DNA from: Alphaproteobacteria bacterium | GTDB lineage: Bacteria; Pseudomonadota; Alphaproteobacteria; Micropepsales; Micropepsaceae | Length of the DNA stretch: 64,000 bases | Direction of reading: 5' to 3' | Assembly: GCA_947467345.1 (NCBI GenBank) | Contig: CANIHD010000017.1 | Span: 1 to 64,000 of the forward strand | Part shown: piece after piece, positions 945-15,235 of the stretch | Position numbering within the stretch: the first letter of the stretch is position 1 | Layout: each line of letters starts with the position of its first letter | Notes under the pieces: generated by a model | What the model was told of the DNA's origin: nothing | Seen by the model: the letters and a program-made list of their open reading frames with translations, nothing else | Database searches by the model: none | Translations under genes and position numbers: made by a program

Positions 945-1118
945 GGGGATTTCCTGGGGCTCTCTACACAGCAGAACGTGAATGGGCGCCGTTTGTTCCG
1001 CTCAGGAACAGTCGCCCCGCGCTTGGGCGTTAATGCTAATGCTGCGTAGTGCAGCCTGTGTTGCGTCGTTTGTCTAAACTTGCGGCTCGATGCGGGCATT
1101 GGGATTGGTCAGGAATCC

Positions 1119-2345
1119 ATGATTTCGGGGACACTATCGGCGGATGCGATGCCACCCGAGTTGCGTCTCCTTCTTGCCTGCGCGAAGCCCAGCACCGGTG
1201 CCGAGGATGACGCTCTCATCCGGCAATTGCTGAATACCGGCATCGATTGGGCGGCGTTTGCGCGCAAGGCGCTTGACCACAATCTTCTGGGATTGGCGGG
1301 ACGGACGCTGAGGCGCGTTGCTTCCGATGTGATTCCCGAAGAGCTGCTCGATGCCTTCCGAATACATTTGGAGGAAACGCGACTTCGAAACCGCGAACTC
1401 TTCGCCGAGCTCAACCTCATTGTTCAAACCCTTGCCGCTCAAGGCATTAACACCATTCCGTTCAAGGGGCCGGTGATCGCGGTTGAGGCCTATGGCGACA
1501 TAGGTTTGCGCGCATTTCGCGATCTCGATTTTCTCATTCGTGACAGCGACGTTCGCGCAACGCGGGCGGTGCTGCGCCGCCTCGGCTATGACCGCCCTGC
1601 GCCTCTCACTGAATCTCAAATCGATATGATTGAGTATTTGCAGGGCCAGGATCTGGTGATGAAGAATTCGGCCGGAATCGAGGTTGAACCGCACTCGCGA
1701 TTGATCTCCGCCAAGATGGCACTGGACATCGACTATGAGGGTCTATGGAGCCGCGCGCGGGTCTCTGTTGTCGAAGGACAATCGATGATGGTCTTCGCGC
1801 CGGAAGATCATCTCCAAATTCTCGCCATTCATGGCGGCAAGGAGATGTGGTGGCGCATCGGATGGGTCAGCGATATTGCCGCCTTTATTGGGTCGCATCC
1901 CTCTGTCGACTGGGATGCAATTCTTACGCGCGCGCGCCGGCAAGGCAGTCTGCGCATGCTTCTTTTGGCGACGGAATTGGCACGGCAATATTTCGGCGCA
2001 GCCATTCCCGCCGCTGTTATGGCGGCCGCAAAAGCCGATCGCGCTATTCCCGAAATGGTTCGAAACATTGCCGCTGGCTGGAGTGAAACCGCACCGCTTG
2101 GCCCGCCGAGCAATAAGACGGTCTCAATGGATCGGCTCCGCCTCCATGACGGCTTTGCGCGCCGGGCGCGCTACGTGGCGCGCACAATCTTCCTGCCGGG
2201 GCCGCATCATGTGGCATGGGTGGCGCTACCACGCCCCCTCGCTTTCGCCTATGTCCCGCTCAAACTGGTGCACGATCTGGCGTTGCTGCCATTGTGGCGT
2301 GCGCGCGGCTATGTGTTGAAGGCTTGGCCGTCTAATCCAAGCTGA
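1119..2345 (+). CDS. Nucleotidyltransferase family protein (NTP_transf_5-like)
   Basis: A roughly 408-residue protein. Its core resembles the NTP_transf_5 family: FKGP at residues 115-118, then YGDIGLRAFRDLDFLI with the acidic pair Asp135/Asp137 typical of the polymerase-beta fold. The family is known beside PqqD-like and HPr-kinase-like genes, including some RiPP clusters, but its substrate is unknown. The ATG at 1119 is preferred because AGGA precedes it; a TTG at 1080 is in frame and would add 13 residues. The gene converges with, and overlaps by 14 bp, the PqqD/HPr-kinase gene. That pairing supports a shared role, although the two are not co-transcribed. Confidence 0.75.
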   Translation: MISGTLSADAMPPELRLLLACAKPSTGAEDDALIRQLLNTGIDWAAFARKALDHNLLGLAGRTLRRVASDVIPEELLDAFRIHLEETRLRNRELFAELNLIVQTLAAQGINTIPFKGPVIAVEAYGDIGLRAFRDLDFLIRDSDVRATRAVLRRLGYDRPAPLTESQIDMIEYLQGQDLVMKNSAGIEVEPHSRLISAKMALDIDYEGLWSRARVSVVEGQSMMVFAPEDHLQILAIHGGKEMWWRIGWVSDIAAFIGSHPSVDWDAILTRARRQGSLRMLLLATELARQYFGAAIPAAVMAAAKADRAIPEMVRNIAAGWSETAPLGPPSNKTVSMDRLRLHDGFARRARYVARTIFLPGPHHVAWVALPRPLAFAYVPLKLVHDLALLPLWRARGYVLKAWPSNPS

Positions 2346-3546
2346 TCGATGTCGCCGCTTCTTGCGGCGTAGTCACTTGCTTCACCAGCTCCACCGCTTC
2401 ATCAAGCGACGACATGGTCAAAGCGTAGCACTCGATCCCGGCAATCCATTGCACCAAGGCTTTTACGTTCCCAAGATCAAGCCGCTGGCGCAGCGCCAAG
2501 CATTCGCCCATCAGCCGTCGCACCGCTTCGACACGCGGCAGCGGGTGAATCGCGGTTTCGCCATCCTTTTCATATATCGGGAAAATGATGTGGCTCACCG
2601 GCGCCGCGTTAGTCGCCGCATCCGGCGGCGGCGCGAGATAACGAATGGTTTTTCCATCCATCCGCTCGTGGGCCTGAAGCGTGGAAATTTCGGGGTAATA
2701 ACGCGCCATCAGATCCCAGCCGGTGCTTTTGGAGCACAGTGCCAGTGGCACCGGCGGAACCAGGAATGTTTCGCGCGTGATGAGAGCAACTTCATCGGTG
2801 AAATAGCGAAATCCGCTATGGCTGAGCGCGGCCGTGAGAGAAGACTTCCCGCTGCCTGCCGCAGCCGGGAGCAGAATGCAGCTTTCGCCAAGTCCCACCA
2901 CGCCAGCGTGGATGTAAAAGAGAAAATCGTAACTGTTCACGGCATCCTGCCACAGCAGGCCTTTGACGATAGGGCCAAGGCGTTGGAGTCCATTCGTGAC
3001 ATCCACCGGCACACCGTTTTTGTTGATGCCGCTGGAAATAGGCCCGTCCTCGTCGCGAGAGCCGAATATCTCCAAAGTTGTAGTCGGCACCGCGTCGTCG
3101 TCGATCGCCAGATGTCCGATCACCGTGTCGACGCGCTCCATTTGCTCTTTCATGCCGTAGCGGATCAACGCCACGGTTTTGAGCAGGCGATAGCGCTTTT
3201 CCAATTTGGATGACGAGAGTGAATTGAAACGGGGCGTGGTCGCCTCGTCGTGAGCGCCCTCGTCCCCGGCGAGCATGCCTTGCGAATGGAGACCGGCGAG
3301 CGTTGTTTCCACCCACGAGTCCGCGTCATCGCGGGCCACACCGCCTTCCGTCACCAGAAAGGCAACAATCTCGTCACCGGACTTTCCGTCTTTCAATTCC
3401 TGAACGACGAAGGCCGCCGTCGCGTTCAGCCCGACAAGGCGCTGCGCCTCCTCCGAGAAGAGAACGGTGTCGTCGCCCAGCGGCAACAGCACCAGATCGG
3501 GACGAAGTATCACGCGTGCCAAAGACTCACCTTTTCGCTCACTCAA
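2332..3546 (-). CDS. PqqD-like / HPr-kinase-like fusion protein
   Basis: A 404-residue two-domain protein. Residues about 11-92 resemble PqqD, the peptide-chaperone/RRE fold (RVILRPDLVLLPLGDDTVLF, then NATAAFVVQEL). Residues about 205-300 resemble the HPr kinase P-loop domain, with Walker A AAAGSGKSSL (Lys234) and FTDEVALI after it. TIGRFAM-type 'HPr-rel-A' systems usually encode PqqD and kinase separately, so a fusion is notable. No PTS HPr gene is nearby, so the phosphoryl acceptor is unknown. The start is taken as TTG because no in-frame ATG occurs before residue 91. A GTG at residue 12 is an alternative. The TTG overlaps the stop of a 28-codon ORF. Confidence 0.75.
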   Translation of the reverse strand: MSERKGESLARVILRPDLVLLPLGDDTVLFSEEAQRLVGLNATAAFVVQELKDGKSGDEIVAFLVTEGGVARDDADSWVETTLAGLHSQGMLAGDEGAHDEATTPRFNSLSSSKLEKRYRLLKTVALIRYGMKEQMERVDTVIGHLAIDDDAVPTTTLEIFGSRDEDGPISSGINKNGVPVDVTNGLQRLGPIVKGLLWQDAVNSYDFLFYIHAGVVGLGESCILLPAAAGSGKSSLTAALSHSGFRYFTDEVALITRETFLVPPVPLALCSKSTGWDLMARYYPEISTLQAHERMDGKTIRYLAPPPDAATNAAPVSHIIFPIYEKDGETAIHPLPRVEAVRRLMGECLALRQRLDLGNVKALVQWIAGIECYALTMSSLDEAVELVKQVTTPQEAATSISLD

Positions 3547-11804: not shown

Positions 11805-12428
11805 TTAACGCCTGCGTGCGGATACGGCGCGCGCAATTTCCTTTTGTACCGCGGCCTCAATGAGGGAAGGCAGATTGGAATCCATCCAGTCGCGGATCAG
11901 AGGGTTAAGCCTGTCAAAGACTTCGGCCTGATTGCTCAGGACCCATTCCTTCAGCACCGGATCGAACGAGCTCTGGATGGCGTGAATAAAGAGCGCGTCC
12001 AAGCCTCCGCCAGCCGGCGGCGCGGCGCGTTGGACCTCGGAACTGTCCTGATCGATCCCTTCCAGAACCCGCTCAACGGCGCTTCTGGTGCGGTCTGAAA
12101 TGAGGTCGTCTGCATCGGCCGTCATGGTCTGCTCCGGTACTTCCGGGACCTCATCGGCAGCCTGAAATTCAATGTCGTCGTCAATTGGTTCCGGAGCCGG
12201 CGGTGGGGGCGTATGCACTGGCGCGGGCGGCGCCACAAAATCGTCGGTAACTTCTTCCGTCAGCTCCAGCACTTCCGTGTCGAACACGGGCGCGGGTTCC
12301 GGCTCAGCCGCGGCTACCGGAGCTTTGTCGGGTTCGGACGCTTCCGGCTGGTCCTCGGAGATGATCTTCCGGATGGAGGCGAGAATTTCCTCAATGGTCG
12401 GCTCGTGTTGCGGTTCGGCAGCGGTCAT
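11805..12428 (-). CDS. popZ: PopZ-family polar organising protein (DUF2497)
   Basis: A 207-residue protein with the hallmark architecture of PopZ. A short N-terminal helix (TIEEILASIRKIISED) recruits client proteins. A long acidic Pro/Glu/Ala-rich linker (about residues 25-110) follows. The C-terminal helical oligomerisation domain contains DPVLKEWVLSNQAEVFDRL and ends in RRR. In Caulobacter, PopZ forms a polar matrix that anchors ParB/parS and recruits cell-cycle regulators. The synteny with valS supports the call. DivK and PleD, which are polar cell-cycle regulators, are also encoded in this window. Confidence 0.92.
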   Translation of the reverse strand: MTAAEPQHEPTIEEILASIRKIISEDQPEASEPDKAPVAAAEPEPAPVFDTEVLELTEEVTDDFVAPPAPVHTPPPPAPEPIDDDIEFQAADEVPEVPEQTMTADADDLISDRTRSAVERVLEGIDQDSSEVQRAAPPAGGGLDALFIHAIQSSFDPVLKEWVLSNQAEVFDRLNPLIRDWMDSNLPSLIEAAVQKEIARAVSARRR

Positions 12429-12571
12429 CGAGAACTTCCGGTCAGAGGCGGCTTGGGGCCGAATTTGTAGGGCTTCGAACCTAAGACAGCCACAATAGAA
12501 ACGCCAGATCGGGTTAAATTTGCCTTTCGACGCGCGCCAAAACCCCGGCGCCCGAAAGACGTGTCATGAAT

Positions 12572-13219
12572 TTAAAATACGAAACCCGCATCGCGCGCGA
12601 AGCCCGGCAGGACCGGCACTTGCGCATCGAACGCCGCGCGTTCGCTGAGCGAGCCTTCGGCCTTCACGTAAAGCCGCGCCCGCGCCGTTCCGCCTTCGCT
12701 GACGACACCGACCAGACGCCCGCCATCCTTCAACTGCCCAAGCAGCGTCTCAGGGCGTTTATAGGCGGCGCCGTTCAGGAAAATAACGTCATAGGGATCA
12801 CCCGCCGAATGGCCACCCGCTAACGCGCCCTGCACGACACGGACATTGGCCAAGCCTTGCAGATTCTCGCGCGCGGTTTTGACCAGGGCTTCGTCTTCTT
12901 CGAGGGCCACAACCCTGGCAGCCAGGCGCGCCAGAATGGCCGACGAATAGCCTGTGGTACAGCCGACATCGAGCACCGTATCGCTGGGTCGGATGCCCGC
13001 GAGCTGAACCAATTTGGCGAAGCAGCGTGGATCGAGCAAAAAGCGCCCGGTTTGGACCTCCGGGCAGCCTTCCATATAGGCCACAGTCTGGAGATGGGCG
13101 GGCACGAAGCGTTCGCGCGCGACATCCATCAGAGCGCCCTGCAGGCGAAGATCCGTGACATCATTGGGCCGCACCTGGCTGTCCACCATGGCGAGGCGCT
13201 GCGTGGCAAAATCCGACAT
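12572..13219 (-). CDS. Protein-L-isoaspartate O-methyltransferase family protein
   Basis: A roughly 215-residue protein of the Pcm family. DSQVRPNDV near the N-terminus is characteristic of the alphaproteobacterial branch. Motif I is VLDVGCTTGYSSA and binds S-adenosylmethionine; FLNGAA and GGRLVGVV follow. The family repairs isoaspartyl residues, but this branch differs from classical Pcm in motif I (GCTTGYSSA instead of GSGY), so the substrate is less certain. The ATG at 13219 gives the family's usual N-terminus; an upstream TTG adds 19 unlikely residues. It lies 143 bp upstream of popZ; tolC, which sits near here in Caulobacter, is absent. Confidence 0.85.
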   Translation of the reverse strand: MSDFATQRLAMVDSQVRPNDVTDLRLQGALMDVARERFVPAHLQTVAYMEGCPEVQTGRFLLDPRCFAKLVQLAGIRPSDTVLDVGCTTGYSSAILARLAARVVALEEDEALVKTARENLQGLANVRVVQGALAGGHSAGDPYDVIFLNGAAYKRPETLLGQLKDGGRLVGVVSEGGTARARLYVKAEGSLSERAAFDAQVPVLPGFARDAGFVF

Positions 13220-13422
13220 GTGAGCGCGCGGGTAAGATACGAAGCGGCTTATATCGGGCGGGCAAGGCCCTGACAACGCGGGGCATCGCCGCGCGGAGCG
13301 GTTCTCCCCCGTTCATTCTCCATCGGCCATTCTCGTTCGTCATTCTCTGGTCGGCTGAGCATTGTCCCGGCTTCCCGCCTTCTGTTATAGGCACCCACCA
13401 CCTGCGCTTCCGCGCAGCGGAC

Positions 13423-13496
13423 GGCCACGTGGCGGAGTGGTGACGCAACGGTCTGCAAAACCGTGAACCCCGGTTCAATTCCGGGCGTGGCCTCCA
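13423..13496 (+). tRNA. tRNA-Cys (anticodon GCA), CCA encoded
   Basis: Acceptor strands ggccacg (13423-13429) and cgtggcc (13486-13492) pair. The discriminator is T and CCA is encoded at 13494-13496. The anticodon stem-loop acggt-ctgcaaa-accgt gives GCA, and the T-arm is cccggttcaattccggg. The 74-nt length is normal. Confidence 0.96.
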
Positions 13497-13729
13497 GTCT
13501 TCTTCGGCACGTTTAGTCGACGCGATGCGTGATTCGGTAACCGATTTGAATCGAATCCGTTGAGTTGTGGCTTCCCCCACCCGCACACTCAAAGTCCGAA
13601 ACACCCGCGCATCCGGCGCGCAGCCGCCATTCTTGCAATACAAATCAATCTGTTAACCAATTCTTTACCTTAAGGGCGCAACTTCCCAGCGTCTTCCATT
13701 GAAGACACCCCACCATTACCCAATGACTT

Positions 13730-13759
13730 GAGGCCGGAGAAAATCCCGCCTCTTTTTTT
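13730..13759 (+). terminator. Probable intrinsic terminator
   Basis: An imperfect hairpin (gaggccgg at 13730-13737 with cccgcctc at 13745-13752, one mismatch) is followed by seven T residues on the plus strand. It is the only terminator-like element downstream of tRNA-Cys. The 230 bases between the tRNA and this hairpin (13497-13729) hold no recognisable gene. Confidence 0.5.
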
Positions 13760-13774
13760 GGGCGCGCGCCCGCG

Positions 13775-14113
13775 TCACTTGCTGGCCGCAGCTGCTTTGG
13801 CGGCACGACGCGCCGCCTGGCGCCGCCCCCACCAAACTTCCACACGGCGGCGAAATCTGCGCACGACTCCCAGATCGATCGACAGAATCAAAAGGCCAAG
13901 CGGCGCCATCCAAAGGCCAAGTATGGGAAGAAATCCCAAGATGGCGCCAATGACCAACGCAATGCCCATCAGGATTCGCACAGGCTTGGAACCCGGAACC
14001 GGCACGGAATAGCCCGCGAATTTTATGCGGCGGCCGGTTGGTTTGGGGTTTTGTTCAGGTTCTGCCAATGCCGGCTCCTGGAATGAATTTGCTATAGAAA
14101 TGGCTACGAGCAT
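13775..14113 (-). CDS. Small inner-membrane protein, conserved in alphaproteobacteria
   Basis: A 112-residue protein with two adjacent membrane segments (about residues 48-64 and 68-82, in ILMGIALVIGAILGFLPI and LGLWMAPLGLLILSID). An Arg-rich cytoplasmic tail (RRFRRRVEVWWGRRQAARR) follows. A PVPGSKPVR motif precedes the first membrane segment. This arrangement recurs in unnamed small membrane proteins of related genera; no activity is known. It is divergent from tRNA-Asn, 33 bp away. Confidence 0.65.
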   Translation of the reverse strand: MLVAISIANSFQEPALAEPEQNPKPTGRRIKFAGYSVPVPGSKPVRILMGIALVIGAILGFLPILGLWMAPLGLLILSIDLGVVRRFRRRVEVWWGRRQAARRAAKAAAASK

Positions 14114-14146
14114 GCGTTAGACAACCCGACCGATCAAGAATGCTGT

Positions 14147-14222
14147 TCCTCGGTAGCTCAGTCGGTAGAGCAAGCGGCTGTTAACCGCTGGGTCGCTGGT
14201 TCGAGTCCGGCCCGAGGAGCCA
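14147..14222 (+). tRNA. tRNA-Asn (anticodon GTT), CCA encoded
   Basis: Acceptor strands tcctcgg (14147-14153) and ccgagga (14212-14218) pair. The discriminator is G and CCA is at 14220-14222. The anticodon arm gcgg-ctgttaa-ccgc gives GTT; the T-loop ttcgagt is canonical. The DNA just downstream (14223-14374) shows no gene and leads into two truncated genes. Confidence 0.96.
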
Positions 14223-14374
14223 ACCTTATAATCAGCCACTAAAACCTTTGGTTCCGTCCGGACATCACAGTTCGGCGATGACGAGGCTGCGTGTGGAGTA
14301 GATGGGGTCTAAACGTCTCTGGAGTCCGGCTGCCTTGGCGTTCCCCAAGTCAGGCGGCGGCTCGCCCAATACTC

Positions 14375-14577
14375 TCACTTCAAATACACCGCCTCAAACC
14401 GCGCCAGGGGCGCCATGCGGGCGCGGTTGAGCGTCAGCTGGTCTCCGTTCAGCGAATAAATGTCGACCCCGCCCAAGACCTCAAAGAACGCCGTCTCCAC
14501 ATCCATGCCTTGCAGGCACGCCATCTTGGTGGAGGCAATCTGAGTGAACCTGATGCGCGAGGCAGCTTCCTCGACGG
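14375..14577 (-). pseudogene. C-terminal remnant of a META/HslJ-domain protein
   Basis: The last about 67 codons on the minus strand read as the end of a META (HslJ-like) domain: RIRFTQIASTKMAC, then ETAFFEVLGG and the strand pair DIYSLNGDQLTL, ending at a TGA at 14375. The STxMAC signature and the length to the stop fit the family. Upstream of about 14577 the similarity ends abruptly and the opposite strand becomes a sialidase-like reading frame. The N-terminal part, signal peptide and start are therefore missing. The boundary is approximate to within some ten bases. Confidence 0.6.
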
Positions 14578-15235
14578 ACCCAAAATGCATTCGGTCATTA
14601 TTGACCCGCGCGACCCGGCCCATATGTATTTCGCCATGTCCAGCGGCGGTGTGCACGAAACGCACGACAAAGGCCTTAACTGGACTCCGCTGGTGGAGGG
14701 GCTGGAGGTCGTCGACGGCTTCGACGCGTCCAATATCGCGTTTCATGATCCGCATTGCGTGCGGCTTTGCCCGAGCAATCCCGATCGCCTCAATCAGCAG
14801 AACCATTGCGGGATATATCGGCTGGATCGTCCGTCTACAGAGTGGATCCGCGTTGGCCGTAACATGCCGGCCGAGATCGGCGATATTGGATTTCCGATGG
14901 TCGTTCATCCGCGCGACGACCGCACGATCTGGGTCTTTCCGATGGACGGTTCAACCGTCTGGCCGCGCACCAGCCCGGACGGTATTCCAAATGTCTATGT
15001 GACGCATGACGCGGGCAGTACGTGGAAGGCGCAAGGCAGCGGCCTGCCGCAAGCGCAAGCCTGGTGGACGGTGAAACGCCAGGCCATGTCATCGGATACG
15101 CAAAGCCCGGTCGGCATCTATTTCGGAACGACAAGCGGCGAAGTCTGGATGAGCGACGACGAAGGGGCAGAATGGTCGCGTATCGCGGCACATCTGCCGG
15201 AAATCTACGCGGTCGAAACAGCAGCGCTCAGATAA
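14578..15235 (+). pseudogene. 5'-truncated sialidase/BNR-repeat (VPS10-like) protein
   Basis: The plus-strand reading begins abruptly at GPKMHSVIIDPRDP and runs through BNR/Asp-box-like repeats (HETHDKGLNWTPL, VTHDAGSTWKAQ, MSDDEGAEWSRI) to a stop at 15235. This is the C-terminal part of a family of exo-sialidase-like beta-propellers; the N-terminal blades are missing. An ATG at 14585 could still start a 216-residue fragment, but no ribosome-binding site is evident. In related genomes such genes precede a ThiS/MoaD-like gene, and that gene follows here intact. Confidence 0.6.

Follow-up and report, generated by a model that had tools for sequence, protein, structure and literature searches.

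A PqqD–HprK kinase fusion paired with an NTP_transf_5 protein in an alphaproteobacterium: a candidate route to phosphorylated small peptides

Linear Polyphosphorylated Peptides (LPP) of Bacillota are encoded by a precursor gene together with genes for an RRE (RiPP recognition element), an HprK-like kinase, an NTP transferase, a SpI-like peptidase (LppS) and an MsbA-like exporter (LppD) (Popov 2026, PMC13381572). According to the main text of that paper, the kinase LppK phosphorylates the precursor LppA, which is bound by the RRE LppB, and the site is Ser3 of the core. Deletion of the transferase gene (LppN) left the detected products unchanged, and the authors assume that its partner lies outside the cluster. 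The lasso peptide kinases PadeK, ThcoK and PsmK are likewise HprK-like peptide kinases; they carry a His-Lys-Asp-Asp set and target a C-terminal Ser, and the nucleotidyltransferase PsmN acts after the kinase and adds hexoses to the phospho-Ser (PMC9266682, PMC8498205). As LppA and PadeA are now known substrates (PMC13381572, PMC9266682), the statement in the initial annotation of our locus that the substrates of such kinases are all unknown is out of date. Our literature search, with most subscription journals and preprints outside its scope, found no paper pairing an HprK-related kinase with PqqD, none on HPr-rel-A or SynChlorMet and none on a RiPP precursor peptide with twin-arginine and PqqD; the main text of the LPP paper (PMC13381572) does not mention "proteobacteri", "tat" or "PqqD".

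The window analysed here is the first 64 kb (64,000 nucleotides) of contig 17 in a draft genome of 2.49 Mb from the family Micropepsaceae (Alphaproteobacteria). It encodes a PqqD (RRE) domain and an HprK-related kinase in a single protein of 404 aa (2332..3546, minus strand), the start codon of which is uncertain (TTG 3546 or an internal GTG). This protein is the only PqqD match of the genome. Its residues 27-92 (3271..3468, minus strand) match Pfam PF05402 with 35.0 bits, above the gathering threshold of 23.4. A profile built from three fusions matched only two sequences in the PDB, both over the PqqD part, namely the lasso-peptide leader-binding proteins TfuB1 (6.6e-9) and TbiB1 (0.12), and the PqqD part of the fusion is closest to these two. 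When residues 11-99 were modelled alone, the mean pLDDT was 66.5 (best blocks 74-86), and the top five Foldseek matches were leader complexes of the TfuB1/TbiB1 type (probability 0.84-0.99, E 0.056-0.41). With a best E of 0.056, we take this low-confidence fold match as weak support; it agrees with the PqqD fold that had been predicted for residues 11-92. Structure prediction of the whole fusion, proposed in the initial annotation, failed: the AlphaFold2 model, based on an alignment of the window protein with its relative L011, had a mean pLDDT of 34 and was left unused.

The kinase domain (residues 198-390; 2377..2955, minus strand) matches NCBIfam TIGR04352 (HprK_rel_A) with E 7.4e-29. Its score of 100.7 bits lies under the cut-off of 200, so we treat it as a relative of HprK_rel_A and no formal member. 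The Walker A motif PAAAGSGKSS (2839..2868, minus strand), with GSGKS at residues 231-235, includes K234, which together with H213 (2908-2910), D251 and E252 (2791-2796, all minus strand) makes up a complete His-Lys-Asp-Asp/Glu set with Glu as the fourth residue. The His-Lys-Asp-Asp motif was named for the lasso kinases (PMC9266682), and its mapping onto the window kinase is our own. In an alignment of 22 kinases, the first Asp is present in 22/22, and the His and the P-loop Lys are found in 20 of the 21 that have residues there. The PF05402 and TIGR04352 matches and the GSGKS motif bear out the initial description of a PqqD domain fused to an HPr-kinase-type P-loop kinase.

The convergent neighbour was also described correctly. 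It is an NTP_transf_5 nucleotidyltransferase-like protein (1119..2345 in ORF 1080-2345, plus strand; PF14907, E 3.1e-54) that probably starts at ATG 1119 or at about 1149, and the ends of the two genes overlap by 14 bp (2332..2345). Its KGP...DLD motif (1464..1529, plus strand) is intact, as is the E-x-H motif (VEPH) downstream. To the left of the pair lie a tRNA-Ser and a 203-aa gene with weak glycine-zipper matches; to the right lies a cytochrome c gene.

A search for the same fusion elsewhere, as initially suggested, returned full-length relatives with 51-52% identity in genome G053, which belongs to the same family, and in the alphaproteobacterial MAG L011, the one relative found by a single-protein scan of a sequence collection. 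Because domain order and this identity are kept in two other genomes, the fusion is not a product of chance. With the three-fusion profile, 17 of 385 genomes of the class gave a match at E <=1e-20. An N-terminal PqqD-like stretch is present in 12 of the 22 aligned kinases (window, G053, L011, G405, G181, G474, G173, G279, G326a, G439, G452 and G014). The kinase of G461, cut by a contig end, is counted as the 13th fused-kinase locus, and G006, where the gene runs off the contig end, was excluded. The Pfam PqqD gathering threshold is passed by four of six fusions scanned (the window protein, G053 with 33.6, G474 with 41 and G405 with 30.1 bits) and missed by L011 (19.2 bits) and G439 (16.1 bits). 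None of 15 genomes exceeds the TIGR04352 cut-off of 200 bits; secondary matches to this model about 60 positions long were rejected as ordinary short HPr kinases. In genome G326, one PqqD-kinase relative has lost its P-loop (G326a, L081:9000-10282), and another kinase adjoins a Tat-like peptide (L141). Near a fused kinase or an NTP-GT41 gene lie methyltransferases that match CARME (L011:1980-3410, L043:3-1067); their C-termini look PqqD-like by eye and have no Pfam PqqD match. Neighbour genes in several high-GC loci were read by eye from mechanical ORF calls, which give many false frames there, so genes missing from these loci are weak evidence.

Co-occurrence of the fusion with NTP_transf_5 extends to other genomes. 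Of the 13 fused-kinase loci, 10 also contain NTP_transf_5 (window, G053, G181, G474, G173, G279, G326a, G439, G452 and G014), mostly in the same direction, so the convergent arrangement described initially holds for the window and not for most related loci. A same-locus copy is missing from G405, which has one on another contig, from L011, which is a 4.2-kb contig, and from G461. In G053, five proteins 869-1017 aa in length begin with the NTP_transf_5 domain (L039:3061-6114; L041:3165-6143; L042:6590-9589 and 12171-15200; L043:1106-3715). One of them was scanned and consists of NTP_transf_5, TPR and Glyco_transf_41 (GT41) parts, and the remaining four show homology to it along their length; the DxD of the NTP domain is lost in two of the five. 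Among the matches to NTP_transf_5 in the class at E 1e-25, no frame exceeds 530 aa, so the GT41 fusion looks rare. The clusters of G053 also encode JmjC_2 and 2OG-Fe(II) oxygenases, FkbM and other methyltransferases, a sulfotransferase and a YdjC-like protein. In the window genome, GT41 genes stand alone: three tandem TPR-GT41 genes, O-GlcNAc-transferase-like, lie on contig 13 (L057:9417-15954). A fourth, short GT41 frame is found at L058:9829-10635.

Looking for a substrate, we found precursor-like peptides of 58-108 aa that combine a conserved twin-arginine-like leader with a variable core. One of them is a small ORF next to the G474 pair; its leader reads RRRFL...TPP...LML, and its tail is Gly-rich. 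A tblastn search with this peptide returned relatives next to the kinases of G181 (two), G279, G461 and G439. A profile of six peptides, run against the 96 genomes of the order, had its best match in the window's own genome, a 58-aa peptide on another contig (G000:C5:59579-59752, E 2.2e-5), the leader of which does not fit a regular expression for TPP-type leaders and was recovered by the profile. Used as a query, the 58-aa peptide matches G053:C5:7921-8070 (E 5.8e-9), which lies roughly 0.3 kb away from the fusion kinase of that genome, as well as G053:C93:382-519 (E 4.8e-5), on a contig carrying another NTP-TPR-GT41 gene. These two peptides, from the second genome with a full-length fusion, are its sole convincing relatives among the 96 genomes. 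A match in G060 is the Tat signal that opens a 473-aa frame and one in G041 belongs to a 235-aa frame, and both were dropped; further matches with E of 3e-5 or higher, located in frames of roughly 315-660 aa, as well as a 46-aa frame with stops in G467, were taken as generic Tat signals or chance.

A leader profile from 18 peptides was run on 50 loci (789 kb, overlapping loci included). It found a non-seed match beside the kinase of G405 (E 1.5e-6, peptide cut by the contig end), and matches without peptide-like context begin near E 0.01. Altogether, 7 of the 13 fused-kinase loci have a family peptide within 1.3 kb (G053, G405, G181, G474, G279, G461 and G439), and in G000, G173 and G452, one occurs elsewhere in the genome. 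No family peptide was detected with the leader profile near the kinases of L011, G014 and G326a, and neither the window nor the rest of its contig has a match below E 1. A small conserved peptide near the fusion, which the initial annotation had proposed to look for, therefore exists at related loci and not on the window's contig. Peptide and kinase are both present in 8 of 385 genomes (hypergeometric 3e-10); since most of these peptides are seeds found via kinase loci, we put the weight on non-seed genomes, where two of the four with peptides have the kinase (G173 and G452, not G208 and G216) versus 12/380 (P 0.005). With seeds removed, the association by genome is thus modest.

The mean pairwise identity of the 18 peptides (153 pairs) is 0.36 in the leader and 0.15 in the core. 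Arg-Arg is present in 18/18 leaders, and the 18 cores have no acceptor residue in common. Five peptides scanned against Pfam matched nothing better than E 0.016, and against NCBIfam only below-threshold matches were obtained, chiefly to TIGR04117 (best 5.1e-5) and to Tat signals. Some of the profile signal is generic, since the leader looks like an ordinary Tat signal. Three tandem peptides in G173 (L133:10430-11266) share 84-92% of their leader bases, differ in their Cys-rich cores and have no adjoining kinase. A tandem pair of nearly identical family peptides lies beside a class V aminotransferase in G386 (L195:6028-6456), and in two genomes, the neighbour of a family peptide is no kinase but a conserved protein of some 600 aa that looks secreted (L135:9772-10071, L137:9489-9785).

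From these sequence data, we propose that the fusion is a leader-guided peptide kinase and that NTP_transf_5 acts after it on small twin-arginine-like precursors, a reading to which we assign a probability of roughly 55%. The precursor would be made up of some 41-55 leader residues followed by a variable core. The leader would be held by the PqqD (RRE) domain, as the fold and the gene association suggest, and the fused HprK-like domain may then phosphorylate a hydroxyl residue, most likely a Ser, in the C-terminal part of the peptide. The motifs point to this step, and its chemistry is adopted by analogy from LppK and PadeK. Subsequently, NTP_transf_5 would work on the phosphate, probably by adding a sugar or a nucleotide, and in one genome with a fused GT41 glycosyltransferase; here the GT41 fusion is our guide, and the glycosylation role is adopted from PsmN. 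The Tat-like character of the leader suggests that it also directs export by a secretory route and is cut off after an A-x-A-like site. In the window genome, the likeliest precursor is the 58-aa peptide, with a core of about TISYCGRTCAP. That the PqqD domain delivers the kinase its substrate, as claimed initially, finds indirect support in the fusion itself and in the leader-bearing peptides beside related kinases, but the window's contig lacks a peptide gene.

Alternatively, kinase and transferase could act on a polysaccharide, a lipid carrier or a larger surface protein, and the Tat-like peptides would be unrelated neighbours or merely co-secreted. GalU and glycosyltransferases, seen by eye in L078, fit such a role, as do the sulfotransferase, deacetylase, GT41 and FkbM methyltransferases of G053. 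Family peptides also occur without a kinase: no fused kinase was detected in G208, G216 and G386 (the last 83% complete), and several copies lie far from any kinase. Yet a kinase-fused leader-binding fold has no obvious use on a glycan, and the adjacency of peptides to seven of the 13 fused loci has a counterpart at stand-alone kinases of the HprK_rel_A type. All seven of these have a different Tat-like small secreted protein nearby, at 4-259 bp in six cases and at 1.36 kb in G101. They were picked by eye from 16 rows of a loose-pattern search, one per stand-alone kinase locus and with a signal-like start, and nine rows were dropped; in three of the seven, a PqqD-like ORF lies between the two genes (pattern and eye). 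We consider a glycan or surface-protein substrate unlikely.

The pair in the window might also be a remnant that lost its substrate, in which case the 58-aa peptide belongs elsewhere. It is a solitary convergent pair without adjoining related genes, the peptide and GT41 genes are on other contigs, and the fusion is missing from most of the order (any match in 9/96 genomes, full length in two including the window). Both frames are intact and their motifs complete, though, and the peptide gene has a terminator-like hairpin downstream (seen, unscored) as well as a relative beside the G053 kinase, which makes decay rather improbable. A further alternative is a lasso tailoring module of the paeninodin or pseudomycoidin type, in which the pair would act on the C-terminal Ser of a lasso precursor, and the genes for the cyclase and the B2 peptidase would lie at another site. 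Lasso B1 proteins are the closest matches of the PqqD domain, and such a pair of kinase and nucleotidyltransferase is known from lasso tailoring (PMC9266682, PMC8498205), but no ORF with the SGGxDS motif of an asparagine-synthetase-type lasso cyclase was found in 505 kb of 32 loci, none of the 18 cores ends in Ser and none of the 18 peptides has [YW]xxP in its leader; we regard this reading as very doubtful. That the kinase is a regulatory HPr kinase homologue in sugar or nitrogen control, as its HprK-related P-loop domain might suggest, is highly improbable, since its best match is HprK_rel_A with HPr kinase proper (NF003883) at 12.6 bits against a cut-off of 252, it is fused to PqqD, and G053, G405 and others have an additional, short HprK-like frame (166-169 aa) apart from it.

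Under the leader-guided kinase reading, relatives of the pair beside tiny peptides with a shared export-type leader suggest a little-known route to phosphorylated small peptides. PqqD/HprK/NTP_transf_5 sets of Proteobacteria would gain a concrete candidate substrate, for example the 58-aa peptide of the window genome, and a Tat-signal-like leader, if true, would be unusual for a RiPP. The NTP_transf_5-TPR-GT41 fusion suggests that NTP_transf_5 enzymes cooperate with glycosyltransferases, and this has a bearing on what LppN and PsmN do. More tentatively, and with more doubt than trust, we consider a class of exported phospho-glyco-peptides in Alphaproteobacteria, in which one leader would serve as both RRE handle and Tat signal, the RRE-kinase fusion would set the phosphate and NTP_transf_5, alone or GT41-fused, would build the sugar. 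Should this be true, the NTP_transf_5-GT41 fusion would name the kind of partner that, in their main text, Popov et al. suppose to be missing for LppN (PMC13381572).

Among known systems, LPP resemble the window system in encoding an RRE, an HprK-like kinase and an NTP transferase together, and in a short precursor with conserved N-terminus and variable C-terminus and no macrolactam cyclase (main text of PMC13381572). The LPP RRE is discrete, whereas that of the window is fused to the kinase; the LPP leader reads YxxPxVLxHQxIxFETxxS, whereas the candidate leaders here are twin-arginine-like; LPP occur in Bacillota and the window system in Alphaproteobacteria. An MsbA-like exporter belongs to the LPP cluster; here no transporter gene was recognised nearby, and ORFs >180 aa lying up to 6 kb from 13 kinases (several contigs short) showed no ABC signature. 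As the enzymes are LPP-like but the leader, discrete-RRE and transporter features differ, we file the system outside LPP. Paeninodin and pseudomycoidin share with it an HprK-like kinase with the His-Lys-Asp-Asp set and a nucleotidyltransferase; their C-terminal Ser target and lasso cyclization are not seen here (18 cores, 32 loci), and with no sign of a lasso cyclase in the 32 loci, we place the system outside lasso peptides as well. The resemblance to HPr-rel-A noted initially holds for the kinds of domain and for the Tat-like small secreted proteins near the seven stand-alone kinases of that type. It does not extend to the curated models, as the domains are separate there (TIGR04352 kinase, TIGR04353 PqqD) and fused in the window protein, which reaches 100.7 of 200 and 13.1 of 35 bits, respectively. 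Likeness to SynChlorMet ScmC/ScmD (TIGR04249, TIGR04248; G474 kinase) and to the Syntroph_Cxxx radical SAM target TIGR04117 is weak, with all matches below the cut-offs. Judged by its sequence, the window system is best read as a phosphopeptide RiPP-like system of Alphaproteobacteria.
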